DNA from: a virus
Virus record (IMG/VR): IMGVR_UViG_3300006917_000063
Location: 1-38,346 of that record
Strand: one strand, 5' to 3'
Length of the DNA: 38,346 nucleotides
Position numbers and translations under genes: made by a program. This document shows, in pieces, positions 2 through 24,690 of the stretch. Position 1 is the first letter of the stretch. Each line of letters begins with the position of its first letter. A model generated the notes under the pieces. It searched no databases. It was not told the origin of the DNA and saw nothing but the letters and a program-made list of their open reading frames with translations.

Positions 2-3000
2 AACATTCGTACCGCGAACACACTCATTGTTGCTGCGAATGTGACATTGACGCCAAGCGCCTTGACGATTGGCAACTCATCCGTCAACACTATTGTCAAT
101 TCGACCGTCTTTACCGGCACCGCTAACGACGCATCCCACGCATTTGGTAAGAATGAGAACCAACTCAACGTCAACAGTGCGAGTGCTGCGGCGTCTGCAA
201 ACGATAGCGCGTATTTTGGTGGTCACCTACCGGCATACTATACGAATGCGACCAGCGTCAATACCGGTCTTCTGTCTGTTGCGTATGGTGGTACCGGCGT
301 CAACTCTGCTCCGTCAAACGGTCAACTTCTAATTGGAAATAGTAGCGGGTTTGTGCTCGCGACATTGGTGGCGGGTGATTACGTCACCATCAATAACCAG
401 CCCGGTTCGATTACTATCGGGGGTTCACTCTCTCCAATTATTGTCGCGAACAGCGCGAACGCGGATCAGTTCACCAATAGCCGTGTGCAGTTTGCCGCAT
501 CTGGCGGTACCACTGTCGCATTTGATGCGGGCAATAATCGCGTCACGTTCTCGTCGGTTGATACAACGAATGCGGATAACATCACCAGTGGCACCCTCGC
601 AAATACGCGGTTGTCTGGAAACTATGCGATCAGCATTACCGGTACCGCGAACAACGCATCATACTTCAATGGTCAGGCCGCGGCGTTCTATCAGAACGCG
701 ACGAACATCAACACCGGCACGCTCTCAAACAATCAACTCTACGGCACCTACGGAATCACCATCACCGGAAGTGCAAACGATACCGCATTCTTCAGCGGTG
801 CGAATGCGGCATATTATACCAATGCGTCGAACATGAGCAGTGGTACGCTTCCTGCGGGTCGTCTCGCGGGCGCGTACACGAATGTCAACGCGATTGGCAC
901 ACTGACGAGTCTCACCATTGCGGCCGACACGTTGATCGGTTCACTCCCGGCGATCAACGTGACGCAATCGTGGACAACCGACAACACGTTCTCTGCGTTG
1001 GTGGTGAACATCACCGATAGCACCGCCAACGATAATTCGACACTGATCGATCTGCAACTGAATAGCAGTTCACGGTTCTCCGTCAATAAGTTGGGCAATA
1101 TCAGTGCGAATACATTTGCCTTAGGAGCGAATGTTACAGGGAACACCTCGGCGGTACGTGTCGGAAACAGCAGCGTCAATACGGTGCTCACGTCGTCGCA
1201 GTTAGCGATTGGCAGTGCAACCGTCAATGCCACGGTATATACCGGTACCGCAAACAACGCGACGTATGCATTCGGTAAGAGTGAAGGCAACCTCAACGTC
1301 AATAGTGCCCTGAGTGCAAATAACAGCACCTATGCGTTTGGGAAGAGCGAAGCCGATCTGAACGTCAATAGTGCCGTTATTGCGAACAACGCGACCTATG
1401 CGTTTAGCAAGAGCGAAGCGAACTTGAACGTGAACAGTGCGCTCTCCGCGAACAACAGCACCTATGCGTTTGGTAAGAGTGAAGCGGATCTGAATGTCAA
1501 CAGCGCATTAACCGCAAACAACAGCACGTATGCGTATGGAAAAACAGAAGGTGCGCTCAACGTTAACAATGCGTCATATGCGTTCGGGAAGAGCGAAGCA
1601 AACCTCAACGTCAACAACGCAGTTTTCCTGACTGGTAATCTCGCACAGACAAACTCAAGCGTCTTGTCAGTGGGAGCAAACGTTGTCGTCAACGCGTCTG
1701 CAATTCTTGTCGGCAACAGCAGCGTCAACGTTGTGACGAACTCATCGCAGATCAGTATCGGCTCCGGTACGTTGACGGCCACCAATTATTCTGGCACCGC
1801 AAACAACGCGACGTATGCGTTTGGGAAGACTGAAGGCAACCTCAACGTCAACAGCGCCTTGAGTGCAAATAACAGCACCTATGCGTTTGGCAAGAGTGAG
1901 GCGAATCTCAACGTCAATAGTGCTGTCAGTGCCAACAACAGCACCTACGCGTATGGCAAGAGTGAGGGCAACCTCAACGTCAACTCTGCTATCAACGCGA
2001 ATAACAGCACCTACGCATTTGGAAAGAGTGAAGCACAACTCAATGTCAATAGTGCTGTCAGTGCGAACAACAGCACCTACGCGTATGGCAAGAGTGAAGC
2101 GCAACTCGATGTCAATAGTGCGGTCAGCGCAAACAATGCAACGTACGCATACGGCAAGACAGAGGGCAATCTCAACGTCAATAGTGCCGTCTTCCTGCAA
2201 GGCAACGCGATACAAACAAATTCGACGGTTCTAACTGTCGGTTCAAATGTTGCACTGACAACAAGTGCGTTAGTGATCGGGAACACCAGTGTCAACGCCA
2301 GTGTTAACTCCACAGTGTTCTCGGGAACCGCGAACAATAGCACCTATGCGTTTGGGAAGAGTGAATCTGACCTCAATGTGAACACCGCATTGACGGCCAA
2401 TAATGCAACATACGCTTATGGAAAAACTGAAGGTGCGCTGAACGTCAACAGTGCCGTTAGCGCCAATAATAGCACATACGCGTTTGGCAAGAGTGAAGGC
2501 GATCTCAACGTCAATAGTGCGCTGGTTGCGAACAACAGCACCTATGCCTATGGTAAGACGGAAGGCAACCTTAACGTCAACAACGCGACGACCGCAGGCA
2601 CCGCAAACAACGCGACGTATGCATTTGGTAAGAGTGAAGCGAATCTGAATGTCAATAGCGCGGTAGTTGCGAATAATGCGACCTACGCGTATGGCAAGAC
2701 GGAAGGGAACCTGAACGTCAATAGTGCTGTCAGTGCGAACAACAGCACCTATGCCTACGGAAAGACGGAAGGCAACCTGAACGTCAATAGCGCAGTATAC
2801 TTGACTGCGAAACTTCCGCTTTCGAACACAGCACTACACACCGTTGGAAATGTGACGTCTGTCACCACAGGGCAAGATTGGGTTCACTATGCGTGGTCGT
2901 CTGGTCTTGTCTACGGCGGTGGTATTGTTGATAACGGTAACGGCAGCGTCACTCTCGCAAATGCGGAAGTGATGCTGCGTTCTGCAGATACCGATCACGC

Positions 3001-8409: not shown

Positions 8410-9933
8410 ATGCCCCTCCAACGGTTAGAGGGCCCCTCCCTCGGAAACGTCACCGCAAACACCCTCACAACTACCGCATCGGTGAATGCGGCGACGTTCT
8501 ACGCGGGCGCAAACGTTTCGCTGAATACCTCAGCCGTCTTTGTTGGCAACAGCACCGTCAATACCGTCATTACCAGTAGTAGCATTACAGGGGCCGTCTC
8601 GGGTGTGGTGGCGTCCCCGACCGGATTTGCGACGACGTTGGTAGCGGGTGAATCACTCGCGGCGCTCGATGCGGTCTATGTGGAACCCACCTTGACAGGC
8701 GGCACCGCTGGTCGCGTCTATAAGATGGATGCGGATGTGCTCATCAAGAGTTCCCAAGCCTTTTTTGCAGGGTTTGCCTTGGCGAGTGCGAGTGCCGCGG
8801 CCAACGTCAACGTACAACAATCGGGTGTGGTGTCGGGGTTTACGGGATTGACGACGGGCGCAATGTATTATGCGGGCAGCACCGCAGGAGCAATCACGGC
8901 GACCAAGCCCTTGCATCCATTACCAGTCGGCATTGCGATTTCGACCACACAACTCCTGATCAATACCGGTCGCAAACGAGAAGATGAGCAGTCGGAGAAT
9001 GTGTCGGCGGTGTATGGGTATCAACTGGGTGGATATACGGGTGCCTATCTCGCAACAGCCGACCGTATTACTTTTAGCACAGGTGCGTATGCCGCCTCCA
9101 CGGTGAATAATCTTTCTGAGGCGCGGTTTTCGTTAAGTGGTCCATCGGATGCTTCCGTGTATGGCTATACCAATGGGGGGTACAACTCATCGGTCGTCGT
9201 AGCGACGTGTGACCGCACCACCTTTGCAACAAGTGTCACGACGGCCTATGCAGTGGGGGCCCTCACCGCCGCCAGATATAATCATTATTCGCTGAGTGAT
9301 GGAGCGGTCTATGGCTACGTGCTCGGTGGATATAACTCTGCCTTTACCGTCTTATCATCCGTCGAACGTCGCACATTCAGCACAGGTATTTCCGCTGCAA
9401 TTAGTGCCACCCTCTCAACTGCTCGTACCGGGCGCTTGGCACAAGGATTATCGGATGGTGCGACCTATGGTTATACGATGGGCGGTTCTACATCGGGCGG
9501 TGTGGCGGGTGGTGTGAGCACGTCGGATCGCATCACCTTTAGCACAGCAACAATTGCCGCATCGACGATCAGTAATTTATCAGTAGCCCGATCAGATATT
9601 GCCACGGTTTCTGATGGGGCTACTTACGGCTATACGTGCGGTGGGTATAACACATCAATAGTTCCTGTAACAACAGGGGATCGTACAACCTTTAGCACTG
9701 GTGCAACTGCGGCCTTAACCAGTGCAAACTTGTCATCGGCACGGGCGTTGTTGGCAGGGGTCTCCGATGGAAATGTGTATGGGTATATCAGTGGAGGCGA
9801 CACGGGTGGTGGAAATCATGTCACAACCACAGATCGGATTACGTTTAGTACTTCCGTGTTGGCGGCCGCTACGGCCAGTAATTTACCAGCAGCAAGAGGC
9901 ATTTCCAATACCCTCTCCGACGGTGCCGTCTAA
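8410..9933 (+). CDS. Kelch-like six-repeat receptor-binding/tail protein, paralogue 2
   Basis: This 507-residue paralogue starts 3 nt after the previous stop codon, so translational coupling is likely. The N-terminal module and the GESLAALDAVYVEP beta domain are close to those of its neighbour. The linker changes to KREDEQSENVSAVYGY. Six repeats follow and the protein again ends SDGAV. The loops are more variable than in paralogue 1: repeats 3 and 4 carry extra loop residues (SVERRTFSTG and SGGVAGGVSTSDR). The gene is followed by a late promoter box, so it is probably the last gene of its transcription unit. The loop variation fits altered ligand specificity, which is inference. Confidence 0.8.
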   Translation: MPLQRLEGPSLGNVTANTLTTTASVNAATFYAGANVSLNTSAVFVGNSTVNTVITSSSITGAVSGVVASPTGFATTLVAGESLAALDAVYVEPTLTGGTAGRVYKMDADVLIKSSQAFFAGFALASASAAANVNVQQSGVVSGFTGLTTGAMYYAGSTAGAITATKPLHPLPVGIAISTTQLLINTGRKREDEQSENVSAVYGYQLGGYTGAYLATADRITFSTGAYAASTVNNLSEARFSLSGPSDASVYGYTNGGYNSSVVVATCDRTTFATSVTTAYAVGALTAARYNHYSLSDGAVYGYVLGGYNSAFTVLSSVERRTFSTGISAAISATLSTARTGRLAQGLSDGATYGYTMGGSTSGGVAGGVSTSDRITFSTATIAASTISNLSVARSDIATVSDGATYGYTCGGYNTSIVPVTTGDRTTFSTGATAALTSANLSSARALLAGVSDGNVYGYISGGDTGGGNHVTTTDRITFSTSVLAAATASNLPAARGISNTLSDGAV

Positions 9934-17578: not shown

Positions 17579-19291
17579 ATGGCCACTATCGATCCACTGA
17601 CACTTGCAAATACGTTCGAAGATCTTGTCACAACCGTCAATGCGGTAGCGACGGAACTCAACACGAATGTATTGAAAATTGGTGACATCTCCGGTAATTT
17701 GGTCGTCGAGCAGATCACGACGAATACGCTGACGGTTCTCGCGACGACGAGTCTGCGTGGAAACACCTCTGCAAACGCCAATCTAACTGTCAACGCCACG
17801 ATCAATACCGTCGCGCTGGTCGTCAGCGGAAACGCATCAATTGCCACATTGAATGTGAGCACAAACACAAGTACCGGTAATCTGACGGTCAGTGGCACAC
17901 TCACTCTCAATGGCGCCGCGATCAATACGACGGCTGTTCCCGAAGGCACCAATCAATACTATACCGATACTCGCGCACGTGCCGCGGTAAGCAATGGTGC
18001 GGGTATTGGCTATAGTAACAGCACCGGCGTCATCACGAATCTTGGTGTCACCGCACTTGCTGGGCAACTACCAATCTCCGTCAATGCATCATCGGGAAGC
18101 GTTGCGGTTTCGATCTCGGACACTCCGTCATTCACAACCGTGACGACAGGCAACGTCGTGGCCAATACTACAGCACTGGCCGTCGGCGCGAATGTGGTCA
18201 GTAACACGTCAGCGATTGTCATAGGGAACAGTAGCGTCAATACGACGATTACGTCTTCCGCGATTACGACGGGCCTCGTGGTGCCCGTAGATCGAACCAT
18301 TACTGCTAATGGTAGCACTGGCACTTCTGGACAGGTGCTCACGTCAAATGGAACGACTGCGTATTGGAGTACCGTCTCGGGTGGAAGTAGCGCAGGTGGA
18401 AATGGTGCGGTGCAATATTGGAACACCAGCACCAACGCGATTGATGCATCAGCGAACCTGTCGTTTACCGGCAGTGTACTCACACTTGGAAACTCCTCTG
18501 TCAATACCAGTCTGAATAGTTCCGCGCTGCTCGTCAGTAGCGTATCGCTGGGCGCAAACGTCTCGTTGAATGTGTCCGCGTACTTTGTTGGCAACAGTTC
18601 CGTCAACACCGCGATTACCGCAGGCAGTATCGGGTTGAATGGCGCTGTCGTCAACTCTACCGTGTTTACGGGTACATCGTATTCGGCGAATAACACCACG
18701 TATCTCAATGGTCAAGCCGCTTCCTACTATACGAACGCGACGAACATTACTACGGGCACATTGGCCAACGCGCAGTTGTCGGGTGCGTATACCGGCATCA
18801 CCGGTCTTGGTACTCTCAGTACACTTACCGTATCGGGCAACACCACAATAGGCGCGAACCTGATCGTTGCGAACAGCACAGGTGTCTATGTGGGAAATGC
18901 TGCGGTGAACGGTTCCGTCACCAGCGCACTCCTGAGTGTGCGACGCAGCGGGTCGTCAATGGAGTTCGGCGCGGCCAACGATGGGTTTCAGTCCGTCGTT
19001 GGCAGTGAAACCACTGGCGCGCCTTTCATCGCATTCAACTGCGAAGCCGGTACCAACAGCGATACCTATCGCACACGCGGCACACGTGCTGGTGCGGTAC
19101 TGCGTGCGGATGCAGGCAACGTCATCATCGGATATGTGGGCACTGCAAATACAGACAATCAATCATTACTTGAATTGCTTCGCGTCAGCGGGAGTGCCGG
19201 CTCTGTCAGCGCCAACGGTATCGTGCGATGTGACACGACTTCCGGAAGACTCGTCGTGCCGGTAGGTGCGAATAAGTACGCGACAACATAA
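17579..19291 (+). CDS. Tail-fibre-type virion protein, 570 aa
   Basis: The N-terminus (MATIDPLTLANTFEDLVTTV) is helical and resembles that of the 451-aa protein at 23335. A run of short beta repeats (TSTGNLTVSGTLTLNG) and the VPEGTNQYYTDTRARAAVS motif, widespread in phage tail fibres, follow. Two GNSSVNTxITSSAI modules sit near residues 210 and 335. The NGQAASYYTNATNITTGTL and AQLSGAYTG patterns are shared with the giant fibre. The C-terminal segment (RRSGSSMEFGAANDGFQSVV onward) is a distinct domain ending SGRLVVPVGANKYATT, nearly the same end as the 23335 product. It is separated by only 2 nt from the first His/Asp-tail gene, so the two products are probably made together. Confidence 0.78.
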   Translation: MATIDPLTLANTFEDLVTTVNAVATELNTNVLKIGDISGNLVVEQITTNTLTVLATTSLRGNTSANANLTVNATINTVALVVSGNASIATLNVSTNTSTGNLTVSGTLTLNGAAINTTAVPEGTNQYYTDTRARAAVSNGAGIGYSNSTGVITNLGVTALAGQLPISVNASSGSVAVSISDTPSFTTVTTGNVVANTTALAVGANVVSNTSAIVIGNSSVNTTITSSAITTGLVVPVDRTITANGSTGTSGQVLTSNGTTAYWSTVSGGSSAGGNGAVQYWNTSTNAIDASANLSFTGSVLTLGNSSVNTSLNSSALLVSSVSLGANVSLNVSAYFVGNSSVNTAITAGSIGLNGAVVNSTVFTGTSYSANNTTYLNGQAASYYTNATNITTGTLANAQLSGAYTGITGLGTLSTLTVSGNTTIGANLIVANSTGVYVGNAAVNGSVTSALLSVRRSGSSMEFGAANDGFQSVVGSETTGAPFIAFNCEAGTNSDTYRTRGTRAGAVLRADAGNVIIGYVGTANTDNQSLLELLRVSGSAGSVSANGIVRCDTTSGRLVVPVGANKYATT

Positions 19292-19293
19292 TC

Positions 19294-20010
19294 ATGGCTA
19301 AGACCGCAGGCAGTGTGTGGGTATCCGGAAACACGTTTCATTATATTGACGCTTCGGGCGTTGAATGGTATGCGATTGGGAGCAATACAGGTCTTGTCTC
19401 GAATGCGGTCGCCGGTTCCATCTGGGTCGAAAACAGTAATCTCGCGTACATCGACGAGAACCAATACAAGCGCACACTGAATGTCGCGACGATTGCGAGC
19501 CGCGCTAATTCTATCGCGGGGTCGCTATGGGTGTCGAACACCTCGGGCACCAGCGCGAATACCGGTAATGTGCAACTTCGCATCATCGGCACCAATAATT
19601 ACGAGTATGCAGTGCATGATGATGTGTCGCATACCGATGTGCCGCATAGCGACATTACGCACACCGATAGCGTAACTCATTACGATTCACATAGTGATAC
19701 TGCCGGCTATAGTGATCACAATGATTATTATTCATCTCATACAGACTATTCCGACTCGTATCATGATGACTCGCACACCGATACATATTATCACAACGAT
19801 GCGCCGGAGTATCATGAAGATTATGGGGACTCTCATACCGATAATCACGCCGATCATGGCGATTATTTCAACGATGGGCACGTCGATTCGCATACGGATT
19901 CTGTGCATAGCGATTCACATAGCGATAGTGCCACACACAACGATGTGGCACATGCGGATGTGACGCACAGTGACGTTGCGCATAACGATCAGCCCGTCTA
20001 CGTAGGATAA
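19294..20010 (+). CDS. His/Asp-rich-tail virion-type protein, copy 1
   Basis: The 238-residue protein has two parts. Residues 1-106 contain three AGSxWV units (near 5, 40 and 75) with FHYIDASG/AYIDENQ strands, a small beta module of the type found in phage structural proteins. Residues 108-230 are a low-complexity tail with 23 His in 123 residues, mainly as H-S/T-D, H-N-D and Y-S-D triplets every 4-6 residues, with no Lys or Arg. The tail ends AHNDQPVYVG. There is no Cys. It is followed 4 nt later by a paralogue and then by a radical SAM enzyme. I infer that the tail is either a substrate for that enzyme or a metal-binding appendage. The high His/Asp content would allow both. Confidence 0.82.
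   Translation: MAKTAGSVWVSGNTFHYIDASGVEWYAIGSNTGLVSNAVAGSIWVENSNLAYIDENQYKRTLNVATIASRANSIAGSLWVSNTSGTSANTGNVQLRIIGTNNYEYAVHDDVSHTDVPHSDITHTDSVTHYDSHSDTAGYSDHNDYYSSHTDYSDSYHDDSHTDTYYHNDAPEYHEDYGDSHTDNHADHGDYFNDGHVDSHTDSVHSDSHSDSATHNDVAHADVTHSDVAHNDQPVYVG
19615..19983 (+). repeat. His-(Ser/Thr)-Asp repeat tail of copy 1
   Basis: These are in-frame degenerate repeats of CAT/CAC-(AGC/ACC)-GAT type. The central part (residues about 137-198, with SDSYHDD, HTDT and NHADHGDYF) is almost identical in copy 2, while the flanks differ in length by indels. Confidence 0.85.
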
Positions 20011-20014
20011 GATT

Positions 20015-20674
20015 ATGGCAAAAACAGCAGGTAGCATTTGGGTCGCCGGAAACACCGTACATTACATCGATGCATCTGGTGTCGAGTGGTACGCGATTGG
20101 CAGCAATACCGGTTTAGCATCTGGTGCTATTGTGGGTTCGTTGTGGGTGGAAGGCACCAATCTTCGCTATGTTGATGCCAGTGGGTTTGCCCGCACACTC
20201 AACGTCACATCGATTGCGAACCGCACAGGCGCTATTGCGGGTTCTATTTGGGTGTCGAATAGCGGAGGCACGAGTGCCTCCACTGGAAACGTACAACTGC
20301 GGATTATCGGGAACAATAACTATGAGTATGCGGTGCATGATGATATTGCACACACTGACTCACATAGTGATAGTGTAAGTCATGGCGACGCGGCCGGCTA
20401 TAGTGATCACGACGATTATTATTCATCTCATACAGACTATTCCGACTCGTATCATGATGACGTACATACCGATACGTATTTTCACAACGATGCGCCAGAG
20501 TGGCATACAGATTATGGTGACACTCATACCGACAATCATGCGGATCATGCCGATTATTTCAGCGATGGGCACGTCGATGTGCATACGGATTCTGTGCATA
20601 GCGATAGTTCCTCTCATGACGACACACACAGTGACGTCGCACATAACGATCAACCCGTCTACGTAGGTTCATAG
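20015..20674 (+). CDS. His/Asp-rich-tail virion-type protein, copy 2
   Basis: This 219-residue paralogue of the preceding gene starts MAKTAGSIWVAGNTVHYIDA, with the same three AGSxWV-type units and the same GNVQLRIIG end of the N-domain. The tail runs from H108 to H210 and has 19 His, no Lys, Arg or Cys, and ends AHNDQPVYVGS. Compared with copy 1 it lacks a stretch after H123 and a stretch near the end, but the central segment from AGYSDH to YFxDGHVD is nearly identical at DNA level. The stop codon overlaps the AGGAGA site of the radical SAM gene. Substrate or metal-binding roles are inferred as for copy 1. Confidence 0.82.
   Translation: MAKTAGSIWVAGNTVHYIDASGVEWYAIGSNTGLASGAIVGSLWVEGTNLRYVDASGFARTLNVTSIANRTGAIAGSIWVSNSGGTSASTGNVQLRIIGNNNYEYAVHDDIAHTDSHSDSVSHGDAAGYSDHDDYYSSHTDYSDSYHDDVHTDTYFHNDAPEWHTDYGDTHTDNHADHADYFSDGHVDVHTDSVHSDSSSHDDTHSDVAHNDQPVYVGS
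20336..20644 (+). repeat. His-(Ser/Thr)-Asp repeat tail of copy 2
   Basis: This is the same kind of repeat as in the preceding gene. It is aligned with it over a conserved core and shortened at both flanks. Together the two copies form a direct repeat of roughly 650-720 bp with a period of 721 bp. Confidence 0.85.
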
Positions 20675-20690
20675 GAGAAAGTAGTTTATT

Positions 20691-22034
20691 ATGAGTATTG
20701 AAGTTAGACCTGTAGGTGTTACGTGCAACATACAATGCAAGTATTGTTACGAAACGGAAATGCGCAATGTGCAAAAATCTCACAAGTATGACCGTAAGGC
20801 CGTGCTTGCAGCCATCGACAAGCTCAAGCCGGACGAATACTTCTCCTTGTTTGGGGGCGAAGCTCTCATTCTTTCTCTCAAAGATCTAGACGAACTGTTA
20901 CAGATCGCGCACACACGTTTTGGCCATTCGGGTGTGCAAACGAATGCGTCGCTCATTACCGAAAAACACATCGAACTCTTCATCAAATATAACACGCATG
21001 TGGGCATCTCAATGGATGGCCCCGATGAACTGAACGATAGTCGATGGGCAGGCACTTTAGAGGCGACACGAAAACAGACACAACGTACCATGTGGGCATT
21101 GAAAGAACTCTGCGGCCGCGCGGTCACCACTCCGCATTTACTCCCCAGTTTGATCGTGACGCTGCATGCCGGCAACTGCCGAGCGGATCGCTTTCCTCGA
21201 TTTCTTGAATGGTTGCACGAACTAGACACAATGGGTGTGCGTCATGTCAATATGCATTTGATGGAGATGGATCATAAAGCGCACGAACTGTATCTTCCTA
21301 GTGAGGAGATTGCAGATCGGCTGATTGAGATCTGGAATATCCTGCCTTCATTCAAACAGTTGCGCATCTCCAAGTTTGACGAGATCCTGAAACTCCAGCG
21401 CGGGAACGGAGATTCAGTCGTATGTCATTGGAAACCTTGCGACCCGTGGAATACCAGTGCAGTAAATGGTATTGAGAATGATGGTTCGCCGTCGCATTGT
21501 TCACGCACCAATAAGGATGGTCAAAACTGGTTGCCGGCCGAAGGATGCGGCACGAAAAACGGTGCTTCAACGTTTATCGGTCATCCCGGTGCTCGACATT
21601 TTGAACGACAACTTGCGTTGTATGTCACGCCGCAGGAATACGGTGGATGTCAGGGATGTGAATATTGGCTCATGTGTTACGGGCAATGCCCCGGTGAAGG
21701 CGCGAATCACGATTGGCGCATGCGCTCCACGTACTGCGGCACCTTCAAGCGTCTATTTGCGGAAGGCGCACGACGACTTCGCGCCGCGGGTGAAGTGCCG
21801 TTTTCCGAGCACCCCAAGCGCACAGAAATTGAAGCGCAGATGTACGCCGCATGGTCGCAAGAAGAAACGCCATATTTGAGTAAGTACACGCAGCCGTCAT
21901 CGAGCACCACACCCGCGACGAAGCACGGTGACCAGCACGGCGATCATACGGATACACAGCCCCATACGCACGATGACGTTCCCCACGGTGATTATTCTGA
22001 TCATGGAGATCATACAGATGTCAACAAGAGATAA
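20691..22034 (+). CDS. Radical SAM / SPASM-type enzyme with its own His/Asp C-terminal tail
   Basis: The 447-residue protein opens directly on a CxxxCxxC cluster (C12, C16, C19, followed by Y20), which binds the 4Fe-4S cluster that cleaves S-adenosylmethionine. SLFGGEAL (G55-G56-E57) is the SAM-binding strand, and GVQTNASLI and GISMDGP are further barrel motifs of SPASM-class enzymes. A Cys-rich C-terminal domain (C245, C250, C270, C286, C320, C323, C329, C333, C349; includes GGCxGCxxWxxCYGQCPG) should bind auxiliary clusters. Residues 412-443 are a His/Asp tail (8 His; HGD, HTD, HDD, HGDYSDHGDHTD) like those of the two upstream proteins. SPASM enzymes usually modify ribosomally made peptides, so the adjacent tails are candidate substrates. 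The reaction is unknown. AGGAGA lies 12 nt upstream. Confidence 0.88.
   Translation: MSIEVRPVGVTCNIQCKYCYETEMRNVQKSHKYDRKAVLAAIDKLKPDEYFSLFGGEALILSLKDLDELLQIAHTRFGHSGVQTNASLITEKHIELFIKYNTHVGISMDGPDELNDSRWAGTLEATRKQTQRTMWALKELCGRAVTTPHLLPSLIVTLHAGNCRADRFPRFLEWLHELDTMGVRHVNMHLMEMDHKAHELYLPSEEIADRLIEIWNILPSFKQLRISKFDEILKLQRGNGDSVVCHWKPCDPWNTSAVNGIENDGSPSHCSRTNKDGQNWLPAEGCGTKNGASTFIGHPGARHFERQLALYVTPQEYGGCQGCEYWLMCYGQCPGEGANHDWRMRSTYCGTFKRLFAEGARRLRAAGEVPFSEHPKRTEIEAQMYAAWSQEETPYLSKYTQPSSSTTPATKHGDQHGDHTDTQPHTHDDVPHGDYSDHGDHTDVNKR
21924..22019 (+). repeat. His/Asp tail at the C-terminus of the radical SAM enzyme
   Basis: This 32-residue in-frame segment carries eight His, with HGD/HTD/HDD triplets and almost no basic residues. 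It is separated from the catalytic part by a Ser/Thr/Pro linker (QPSSSTTPAT). Its last codons overlap the start of the next gene. Confidence 0.85.
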
Positions 22035-23322
22035 TGTTCCGGTACTTCCGGATTGGACACGATGGTCATGGCGCAGTGCTGATGAACGCGAGTGGTGGCA
22101 ACCATTGTTCACGCGTGCGAGTAATGCGTATCAAGATGTCGAACGATTGGCTGTTGTGCACGGTCTGCGACCCGCCGCGTTTCAGAATGTTCCTTCCGAT
22201 GGTCTTATTGAGGCCACCCGCTGGGCTGCGCGGCATAACATTCTATGCGTACCACAAACTACCGTAGGTGTTGCCTCTTCGTATAGCAGCACCTCTCAAC
22301 CCATTCGCGATGGAAAATTCGTCTATCGGGTTTTGTATTTGAACCCGCAATACTATGACCGGGCGTTTCCACAAACCGATGCGCAGTATGGCGAACTCTT
22401 AGGCTATCCCGCCTGCTGCCGAGACGCGTATGATGCCACATGGGGCGCGGGTCGTGTCGATAGCACGTGGGAACAAACACGCGAGGGTGCGCATCCGAAT
22501 AGCGACCCCTACGCGAGCACCCTATTGCGCTGGATGGGCCTGCGTTTGGTGTCGCATATGCCGTGTTCCTATACGTGCGACGCGTCGCAACGCATCGGTC
22601 ACGCGATGTTTGATTTGGGTTGCGCACATGGATACCGTGAGGAGATGCACACCATTCGTGAAGTCTTGTCATGGCCGCTAAAGTGGTCACGACTATTTGG
22701 TATTGCGGAGATCGTCACACCTGCGTTGAAGATCTCAACACGCAGCGACTGGACGCCGCAGAAACAGCAGTTCTTTCGTACGGGGCACTATGAGCGTGTT
22801 CGAAAGACGCTATGGAAGGATAATCAATTTTCGTCTGCAGAAGGCATGCGTACGACTCACGAAGATATGATCCCTGCGTTAGCGACGCAATTACCGGAGC
22901 AGGCACGTGTGTTGGATCTCGGATGCGGAAATGGGCATCTGCTGCGACGACTAACTATATATAGACCAGATATTCGTATTGCGGGAGTGGATACGAACGC
23001 TGACGCGATTCATCGTGCCCAACATCCGATTTCTCCGACAGCACGGTTTACTGCGGCTCGTATTCAAGACGGCACATGGCGCGACTGGAACCCTACAGCG
23101 GTGCTGTTTAATCCTGCACGTCTGACGGAAATGTCTCCGTCAGACGCAAGTAATGTTGCGGCGTGGATTCGAGAAATACCATATCAGTTTCCATATTGCT
23201 ATAGTGATTGGCAAGCAAAAATCGACGTGCGCACCTTGTGTGAACAATATCATGTGGGCACACCCGCGCCCCTGATTCGTACACCGAACGTGGAAATGGG
23301 AGTCATGACAACTTTTACCTAA
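22018..23322 (+). CDS. GYPxCC-domain / SAM-dependent methyltransferase fusion
   Basis: I choose the ATG at 22018 (MSTRDNVPVLPDW). It has GGAG 9 nt upstream, and the longer frame from 21928 only reads through the previous gene's His/Asp tail in another frame. The two genes overlap by 17 nt. In the 434-residue product, residues 30-240 contain ELLGYPACC (C133, C134) and SHMPCSYTCDAS (C183, C187), a four-Cys pattern that resembles the GYPxCC proteins grouped under DUF483. It could bind metal or an Fe-S cluster. Residues 295-390 form a class I methyltransferase domain: VLDLGCGNGHLL (motif I), IAGVDTNADAI (motif II) and LFNPARL. Position and overlap suggest it works with the radical SAM enzyme on the same target. 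The methyl acceptor is unknown. Confidence 0.8.
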   Translation: MSTRDNVPVLPDWTRWSWRSADEREWWQPLFTRASNAYQDVERLAVVHGLRPAAFQNVPSDGLIEATRWAARHNILCVPQTTVGVASSYSSTSQPIRDGKFVYRVLYLNPQYYDRAFPQTDAQYGELLGYPACCRDAYDATWGAGRVDSTWEQTREGAHPNSDPYASTLLRWMGLRLVSHMPCSYTCDASQRIGHAMFDLGCAHGYREEMHTIREVLSWPLKWSRLFGIAEIVTPALKISTRSDWTPQKQQFFRTGHYERVRKTLWKDNQFSSAEGMRTTHEDMIPALATQLPEQARVLDLGCGNGHLLRRLTIYRPDIRIAGVDTNADAIHRAQHPISPTARFTAARIQDGTWRDWNPTAVLFNPARLTEMSPSDASNVAAWIREIPYQFPYCYSDWQAKIDVRTLCEQYHVGTPAPLIRTPNVEMGVMTTFT

Positions 23323-23334: not shown

Positions 23335-24690
23335 ATGCCACTGATTACACCGATACAAACTACCGATACGTTCCGCACATGGGTCACCCGTACCAATACG
23401 GTTATTGATCTTTTGAATAGCAATACCGTCGTTGTGGGCGGCAATGCTATCGGTGCCTTCACGATTGGTAATTCTTCCCATACAAATACGAGTCTGTCGC
23501 TTAATGGCGGAAAAACGCTCGCGAACTTGAGTGGTCTTTTTCTTGCGGGAAACTCGACATTTGGCGCCAACGTCTCTGTCAATAGTTCCGCGCTGGTCGT
23601 CAGTGTGTCCGCGAATACGACACTATTCCAGTCGCCCGGTGGAACCGTCGTTAACGCCAGCCCGCTATCGGTGAATGCTGCCGCCACATTTAATGGTGCG
23701 GTCACATTTACCGCATCTGGGCCACTGACAATCGGTAATGTTGCATCATTTGCAAGCAACGTTTCCGTTGCGAACAATCTGGTGGCATCGAACACCGCCT
23801 ACATGCGGTCAATTCTGTTCAGCGAAAGTGGAGCAGTTATTGCGGCTACCGTGTCGTCAGCACAATACGACAATTACAATCCCAGTGGATTGCACGATGC
23901 GCAAGTCGTGCACATGAATCCGGATACGCAGAATATTATTCTGACGGGTATTGTCGCTCCCACAAACCTGTCTATCGGTGCTAAAGTACTATACCTTCAG
24001 AACCTATCCGGTTCCTATAAGATTACGCTCAAGAGTGAAGACCCGTCATCGAGCGCCCTGAACCGATTCAAGACTGTCTCCAACCAAGATGTTGACGTGC
24101 CACCCGGTGGTTCAATTCCGCTATTGTACACCACAGCCACAGGTCGTTGGCGGTTATTGGCGGCACCTGCAGGCACCAGCACGACATTATCTGTGTCTGG
24201 CGCCGCCACATTCAGTGATACCGTCAATGTGACGGGTGTGGCGTCATTTACCAGTAACGTCGCGGTTGATAGCAACGTCTTGTTTGTCGATACCGTCAAC
24301 AACCGCGTCGGCGTGAATATCAGTTCACCCACATCTCCGTTACACGTCGTAGGCAATTCGCTATTCGGTAATGTGACGATAGGTGGAACCGCAAGTATTA
24401 CCGGGGCGGCCACGTTCAGCAATACCGCATCCGTGACCGGCGCGGTGAATGCATTGAGCACTTTCGGTGTGACAGGCGCAGTCAATGCGCTGAGTACCTT
24501 GGGCGTGACAGGCGCAGTCAATGCGCTGAGTACATTCGGGGTCACAGGCGCCACCACACTCAATAGCACACTCGCCGTATTGGGGGCCGCGGATTTGCGA
24601 GCGAATGTCAGTGTCAATGCGATTGCACGTTTCGATAGCACCGGAGGCCGCCTCGTGCTGCCTGTCGGTACCAATAAATGGGCTTCGTAA
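23335..24690 (+). CDS. Tail-fibre / neck-appendage-type virion protein, 451 aa
   Basis: The protein starts MPLITPIQTTDTFRTWVTRT, a helical N-terminus shared in form with the 17579 product. It then has FGANVSVNSSALVVS and several short beta-repeat units (AATFNGAVTFTASG and similar). A central domain (residues 155-285, SGLHDAQVVHMNPDTQNIIL onward, with PPGGSIPLLYTTATGRWRLL) resembles the beta domain of other phage fibres. Residues 369-404 are three perfect-period 12-residue repeats (GAVNALSTFGVT). It ends GGRLVLPVGTNKWAS, matching the end of the 17579 protein. It lies 6 nt before gene 13, a place where related T4-like phages often encode fibre or whisker-like proteins. I cannot assign it to whiskers. 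Confidence 0.75.
   Translation: MPLITPIQTTDTFRTWVTRTNTVIDLLNSNTVVVGGNAIGAFTIGNSSHTNTSLSLNGGKTLANLSGLFLAGNSTFGANVSVNSSALVVSVSANTTLFQSPGGTVVNASPLSVNAAATFNGAVTFTASGPLTIGNVASFASNVSVANNLVASNTAYMRSILFSESGAVIAATVSSAQYDNYNPSGLHDAQVVHMNPDTQNIILTGIVAPTNLSIGAKVLYLQNLSGSYKITLKSEDPSSSALNRFKTVSNQDVDVPPGGSIPLLYTTATGRWRLLAAPAGTSTTLSVSGAATFSDTVNVTGVASFTSNVAVDSNVLFVDTVNNRVGVNISSPTSPLHVVGNSLFGNVTIGGTASITGAATFSNTASVTGAVNALSTFGVTGAVNALSTLGVTGAVNALSTFGVTGATTLNSTLAVLGAADLRANVSVNAIARFDSTGGRLVLPVGTNKWAS
24439..24546 (+). repeat. Three 36-bp in-frame tandem repeats
   Basis: The repeats encode GAVNALSTFGVT three times (the second with L for F). Units 2 and 3 differ at only a few third positions, so this is a recent expansion within the fibre gene. 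Confidence 0.9.

Follow-up and report, generated by a model that had tools for sequence, protein, structure and literature searches.

A candidate phage module for cross-linking aromatic-X-Asp/Asn triplets in repeat-tailed proteins

Gene content of the module

The window analyzed here, a 38,346-base IMG/VR virus record (IMGVR_UViG_3300006917_000063), carries four consecutive genes encoding two paralogous proteins with His/Asp repeat tails (tail proteins A and B), a radical S-adenosylmethionine (SAM)/SPASM enzyme and a DUF483-methyltransferase protein (Table 1). As judged from the gene content around this module, the source virus is a T4-like myovirus. The module is placed within the fibre cluster, with fibre proteins upstream and the gp13-like head-tail adaptor Ad2 downstream. 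Intergenic distances are +4, +16 and -17 nt, and these coordinates agree with the original prediction, made from the letters of the window, of four adjoining genes -17 to +16 nt apart in a fibre cluster. For the DUF483-methyltransferase gene, the start codon is the ATG at position 22018 and not the GTG of a longer open reading frame (ORF).

The repeat tails of A (131 residues) and B (112 residues) contain no Lys, Arg or Cys, as their residue counts confirmed, and all 42 of their His residues (23/23 in A, 19/19 in B) lie inside H-x-D triplets. When the tails were shuffled 2000 times with composition preserved, the mean number of H-x-D triplets was 5.1 for A and 4.5 for B, with maxima of 13 and 10, respectively. 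Thermus phages and 11 further viral sequences contain counterparts that align with the beta module preceding the tail of A. The proposed substrates are full-size proteins with folded N-terminal carriers, 219-238 residues long in the window and up to 1400 residues in relatives.

In the enzyme, the radical SAM core motif is C12-x3-C16-x2-C19 and the SPASM motif, C250-x14-G265-x4-C270 ... C320-x2-C323-x5-C329-x3-C333 ... C349, is an exact match to the pattern. Across 24 aligned relatives, the core Cys and most SPASM Cys did not vary, and in a 23-member family alignment every one of these Cys was invariant, which bears out the predicted CxxxCxxC and SPASM-type Cys-rich domains. The predicted fold (predicted local distance difference test score (pLDDT) 80) was closest to ChlB and to the anaerobic sulfatase-maturating enzyme (anSME). 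A feature absent from the original prediction is that the last 37 residues of the enzyme (411-447) themselves hold seven H-x-D triplets (KHGDQHGDHTDTQPHTHDDVPHGDYSDHGDHTDVNKR); a C-terminal region with at least one H-x-D/N triplet was present in 20/24 family members.

The fourth protein, predicted to combine a GYPxCC domain with a methyltransferase, was found to contain both parts: the Cys-containing N-terminal part is DUF483, with GYPACC at residues 129-134 (PF04467 was matched by 14/17 relatives), and the methyltransferase domain spans approximately residues 282-434. Among sequence relatives in the PDB, the plantazolicin methyltransferases BpumL/BamL were the best matches to the methyltransferase (2e-10). 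When a model of the DUF483 protein (pLDDT 91) was used in a structure search, the best 50 matches were all methyltransferases. One literature match for DUF483 was rejected as a prefix match to DUF4832. The methyltransferase is a member of the system in the window, as had been proposed, but lies outside its constant core, of which the DUF483 half is the conserved part; because Thermus phages carry the module without the methyltransferase, that domain is probably optional.

Table 1. Coordinates of the module and its flanking genes in the window
Feature	Position	Strand	Remarks
Tail protein A, whole gene	19294-20010	+	First of four genes
Tail protein A, N-terminal beta module with three GSxWVEG...YID repeats (carrier domain)	19294..19614	+	Alignment with relatives
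Tail protein A, repeat tail (proposed substrate)	19615..20007	+	23 H-x-D and several Y/F-x-D triplets; no K/R/C
Tail protein B, whole gene	20015-20674	+	Paralogue of A
Tail protein B, N-terminal beta module (paralogue of that of A)	20015..20335	+	79% identity between A and B overall
Tail protein B, repeat tail (proposed substrate)	20336..20671	+	19 H-x-D and Y/F-x-D triplets
Radical SAM/SPASM enzyme, whole gene	20691-22034	+	
Radical SAM/SPASM enzyme, catalytic part (CxxxCxxC, seven-Cys SPASM motif)	20691..21920	+	PF04055, 3.6e-14
H-x-D tail on the C-terminus of the enzyme	21921..22031	+	KHGDQHGDHTD...HGDHTDVNKR
DUF483-methyltransferase protein, whole gene	22018-23322	+	
DUF483 domain (GYPxCC and PCxxxC cysteines), conserved third partner	22018..22797	+	Profile in 30/33 family loci
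Class I SAM methyltransferase domain, accessory part of the DUF483 fusion	22861..23319	+	Sequence similarity
Upstream fibre-like protein (setting)	17579..19291	+	Without family match
Downstream fibre-like protein (setting)	23335..24690	+	

Triplet grammar and co-occurrence of tails and enzyme

To describe the triplets, 40 tails (8177 residues, 1397 His) were sampled. Asp or Asn was present at +2 of 97% of the His residues and Ser at +2 of 6/1397, and an aromatic residue was present at -2 of 91% of Asp residues (background 24%). As the tails were picked for triplet richness, these overall frequencies are partly selected for; more telling are the contrast between offsets and the surplus of Tyr/Phe/Trp at Asp residues without His. 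For Asp without His at -2, Tyr/Phe/Trp occupied -2 in 134/270 (50%), versus 7-10% at offsets -1 and -3 to -6, and for Asn the corresponding values were 31% versus 4-10% at other offsets. Glu was preceded by an aromatic at -2 in 12%, below the background. Asn replaces Asp, and Glu does not. F-x-N and F-x-S units were present in some tails (L010, L012, L014), and the tails of L010 and L014 contain ladders in which F-V-N or F-S-S alternates with H-S-D or H-Y-D.

In close pairs of tails, the middle residue and the linkers drift and positions 1 and 3 are kept. For the L025/L026 pair, position 1 differed at 1/37 sites and position 3 at 9/37, eight of which were swaps between D and N. Between Cumys and phiMa, HYD was replaced by YYD (H to Y at position 1) and WTN by WTD (N to D at position 3). 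The proposed substrates contain up to ~80 aromatic-x-D/N triplets each, on carriers that include beta modules, laminin-G-like, glycine-rich and collagen-like proteins and a KilA-N protein. Because the carriers differ so widely, it is the tail and not the carrier that the enzyme tracks.

Family loci (n = 33) were collected by profile searches and tblastn; 31 were phage or viral, and the others were from Scytonematopsis and Paenibacillus. Most contained a single radical SAM enzyme. A separate H-x-D/N-rich ORF was present in 32/33 of these loci, the exception (L017) being an 8-kb fragment, versus 0/35 viral and 0/78 genomic loci (0/113) of more distant radical SAM enzymes recovered in the same searches (Fisher p 2e-31, calculated with kinship ignored and with several family loci being near-duplicates). 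The original prediction had proposed that co-occurrence be searched for, and the tails and the enzyme were indeed found together. DUF483 was present in 30/33 family loci, and the remaining three were cut at the locus end.

For the converse scan, viral contigs were searched with back-translated H-x-D repeats of period 4 and 5. Raw matches were often out-of-frame DNA repeats (HKDN, HADQ) and were filtered on residue diversity and Lys/Arg content. The resulting sets share members; L187 was included as an extra contig, and L164, L310 and L335 were removed manually as repeat-like. Among the tail-bearing contigs listed, the enzyme was encoded within the locus or at another place in the record for 18/20 and 30/34 (overlapping sets). 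Tails without enzymes in related phages would have spoken against a substrate relation, and this refutation did not materialise: among the contigs listed, all such tails were on records between 10 and 78 kb long, of which some had the tail at the contig end and some were clearly truncated. The tail-bearing records L304, L331 and L353, in which no enzyme was found, have a collagen-like carrier in common with L359, a 105-kb record in which both enzyme and tail are present, far apart. In all four, which are related contigs, the H-x-D tail follows collagen-like GPPGPPGPAGA repeats.

Among annotated phages, tblastn detected the enzyme in Thermus phages Cumys, phiMa and phiLo (37-40% identity), where DUF483 adjoins the enzyme and H-x-D-tailed proteins are nearby. 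The constituents of the Thermus phage radical SAM module, namely a radical SAM enzyme, DUF483 and a third protein in adjacent positions, were all found. With tail protein B as tblastn query, only Cumys and phiMa were recovered among phage records, perhaps in part because low-complexity filtering hid the tails; a search by the N-terminal carrier module was fruitless, as conserved stretches were wanting. In Paenibacillus (locus L069), DUF483 is fused to the radical SAM enzyme. The fused protein of Paenibacillus harenae lies beside a 1051-residue protein with an H-x-D tail, and a second Paenibacillaceae genome contains the same fusion and a tailed carrier of 1394 residues.

Proposed cross-linking and alternative explanations

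The gene set, the triplet grammar, the reciprocal co-occurrence and the fusion were read directly from the sequences, and together they strongly support tails A and B as the substrates of the adjacent radical SAM enzyme. The four genes probably constitute a maturation module for phage appendage proteins, in which the enzyme would cross-link each triplet. Of the virion-protein maturation first proposed for this locus, the relation between tail and enzyme has been upheld by co-occurrence and grammar; the products would be located in the virion.

Three-residue cyclophane enzymes join residues i and i+2, and published bonds include Tyr-Asp (YxdB), His-Ala (HaaB), Tyr/His-Arg (YhhB), Trp-Asn/Asp (OscB), Phe-Asn (XncB, OscB) and Phe-Ser (MscB) (PMC11002830). 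The aromatic-X-X3 rule of the tails is that of this class of enzyme and not one of metal binding. Like these triceptide maturases, the window enzyme has a CxxxCxxC core and a seven-Cys SPASM domain, would act on adjacent aromatic-X-X3 triplets with D/N/S as third residue and all aromatics accepted, and has profile similarity to AmcB and YhhB. Unlike them, it scores under the cut-off of every named family, has a DUF483 partner, bears substrate triplets itself, and is associated with long tails on full-size phage proteins instead of short leader peptides with protease/export genes. All family members (23/23) matched the profiles of the cyclophane maturases AmcB, YhhB, GrrM/OscB and XyeB and of the dynobactin enzyme DynA.

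The reaction is proposed to proceed as follows. The C-terminal tails of A and B would each be modified many times over by the enzyme, which possibly treats its own tail in the same way. Most likely, the C-beta hydrogen of the third residue of a triplet (Asp/Asn) would be abstracted and that C-beta joined to the aromatic ring of the first residue (His C2, Tyr C3, or Phe/Trp carbons), giving one three-residue cyclophane per triplet with loss of 2 Da. DUF483 would be indispensable as a partner and may bind or present the tail, and the fused methyltransferase would add optional methylation. The end product is likely to be a stiff, acidic, protease-resistant (trypsin-proof) appendage, with stability or receptor contact as candidate benefits. 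In this scheme the bond type, the number of sites modified, the roles of DUF483 and the methyltransferase, the virion location and the benefit are the proposed parts. For many tailed phages and a few bacteria, we lean slightly towards the view that protein chains are locked as ladders of tens of aromatic-to-Asp/Asn cyclophanes by one phage-encoded enzyme, with DUF483 as a new partner.

Several points weigh against cross-linking as described. Modification of the tails is predicted from sequence. The AmcB score of the window enzyme was 69.9 bits against a cut-off of 425 and was about equal to that for the anaerobic sulfatase maturase profile (69.2 bits, cut-off 349); AmcB, anSME and DynA are the closest named families, with YhhB at 45.7 bits against 445 and XyeB and GrrM/OscB also far below their cut-offs. 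No RiPP-type (ribosomally synthesized and post-translationally modified peptide) leader or protease gene was evident, and there is no protease gene in the four-gene module. A His-to-Asp C-beta bond was absent from the published examples found, among which His-Ala, His-Arg and Tyr-Asp are present. The cyanobacterial locus L284 (5990-9050, minus strand) encodes enzyme and DUF483 without a nearby H-x-D tail. In L068, also cyanobacterial, a KilA-N protein with an H-x-D tail (9113-9877, minus strand) lies beside enzyme and DUF483, and therefore not all substrates would be virion proteins.

The enzyme might modify the tails in another way, by a dynobactin-like bond from His N to Asp C-beta, epimerisation, beta-hydroxylation or desaturation of Asp/Asn, or other oxidation of the third residue. 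Reciprocal co-occurrence is compatible with any modification, DynA was among the best profile matches of relatives (8e-26), and anSME, an oxidising enzyme, was as close as AmcB. A change to a single Asp/Asn needs no aromatic at -2, yet nine-tenths of the sampled Asp residues have one, and a His-type C-N bond is impossible for Phe or Trp at position 1. Because an aromatic partner is required, a bond between both triplet residues is favoured and these other modifications are considered unlikely. It is far less probable that the tails are appendages for binding metal (Fe, Zn, Ca) and that the enzymes act elsewhere, an alternative that the original prediction had ranked below maturation and that the triplet grammar also disfavours. 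His/Asp-rich repeats do recall metal sites, and iron-binding His residues are known from phage fibre tips; metal binding would predict Glu in place of Asp, not Asn, and no Phe/Trp at position 1, and the data were the opposite, with F-x-N and F-x-S serving as ladder units in some tails and the enzyme accompanying the tails in widely differing phages and in two bacterial lineages.

The Thermus phage module, which has the same set of tail protein, radical SAM enzyme and DUF483, was published in 2024 as a gene association with a guess of DNA modification (PMC11437467). Modification of phage DNA (hypermodified bases) by the module would accord with the location of cyanobacterial homologues near deazapurine DNA-modification genes (PMC11437467). 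The main text of that paper mentions neither the H-x-D tails and their grammar, nor the enzyme tail, nor the wider tail-bearing family; since the enzyme belongs to the SPASM peptide-maturase type, has tail genes next to it, bears the same triplets and co-occurs with tails in a nearly one-to-one manner, this reading is given a shade less weight still than metal binding. Least credible is a tail that serves as scaffold or docking string for the enzyme, with triplets used for assembly and not as substrate: dozens of triplets per carrier and the interchange of aromatics and of D and N exceed the needs of docking, and the enzymes of L020, L068 and L069, which have no tail of their own, still adjoin tailed proteins. 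A motif that speaks for docking, HADHxDETGRY, occurs both in the tail of the enzyme itself and in a small L401 protein. There, the 133-residue protein (1076-1474, minus strand) repeats HADHVDETGRY, and the tail of the enzyme ends in HADHTDETGRY; the match is possibly a docking tag.

Cross-linking by a phage module was also compared with other systems in which SPASM enzymes meet repeats. TvgA/TvgB, which makes poly-cyclopropylglycine, is a case in which one SPASM enzyme modifies many repeats of one peptide (PMC9062424), as is proposed here; its TVGG motif and chemistry differ, and it is not viral. The His-Xaa-Ser (Hxs) system resembles the module in having radical SAM enzymes beside repetitive His peptides. 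Its repeats and partners had been predicted to differ, and they do: the third residue in the tails is D/N and hardly ever Ser (6/1397 His), and one enzyme with DUF483 stands in place of the HxsB/HxsC pair. Membership in Hxs was rejected on motif and profile score (HxsB profile, 30 bits against a cut-off of 370). From Cys or Ser in the motif Cys/Ser-x-Pro-x-Arg, anSME makes formylglycine. It shares with ChlB the position of closest solved SPASM fold, but its family-level score was not reached. Formylglycine at the Ser/Thr of H-S/T-D was rejected because the middle residue varies freely and the anSME motif is impossible in the window tails, which have no Cys or Arg. A viperin or defence system was likewise rejected (42.8 bits against a cut-off of 180), and PADLOC matched only the shared radical SAM core.

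Implications and further observations

In the open-access literature, no description of phage proteins modified in this way was found (most subscription journals lie outside its coverage), and both the use by viruses and the DUF483 chemistry stand a substantial chance of being wholly new. If cross-linking is correct, RiPP-type macrocycle chemistry would serve in viruses as maturation of structural proteins: radical peptide chemistry so far associated with bacterial RiPPs would be used at dozens of sites per appendage chain, with a His-to-Asp bond new to the literature searched. It would also account for a gene module that had been seen before in cultured Thermus phages, assign a function to DUF483 and provide enzymes for cyclising long repetitive proteins, also at high temperature. 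The isolates Cumys, phiMa and phiLo (T. thermophilus HB8) make the idea directly testable by virion proteomics. Such tails are free of Lys and Arg, and crosslinked residues escape routine database searches, so that the proteomes now available could have overlooked them.

Radical SAM enzymes were duplicated in tandem in L010 (7992-11448), L012 (8001-11126) and L014 (7971-11387); in L010 and L014, whose tails have F-x-N/F-x-S units, the duplicates possibly split labour between His and Phe triplets. In Thermus phage phiLo (L008, 15256-17110, minus strand), a second, larger H-x-D tail protein lies beside phiLo_137, with 90 H-x-D triplets in the part fetched. The neighbours in L284 are coiled-coil fibre-like proteins, one of which has a run of 12 Pro near its end, possibly a frameshift-prone tract.

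Downstream of the fibre cluster of the window, Ad2 is followed by genes for neck, sheath stabiliser, terminase, sheath, tube, portal, protease and scaffold proteins. The fibre proteins that flank the module have a C-terminal peptide in common (window 19255-19291 and 24650-24690; RLVLPVGTNKWAS and RLVVPVGANKYATT). The peptide was shared by L010, L011, L018 and L007 and reads VVLPVGTDRWAP in Cumys_14 and YRLVLPVGTNLYAT in L018; it is perhaps an attachment or assembly tag.

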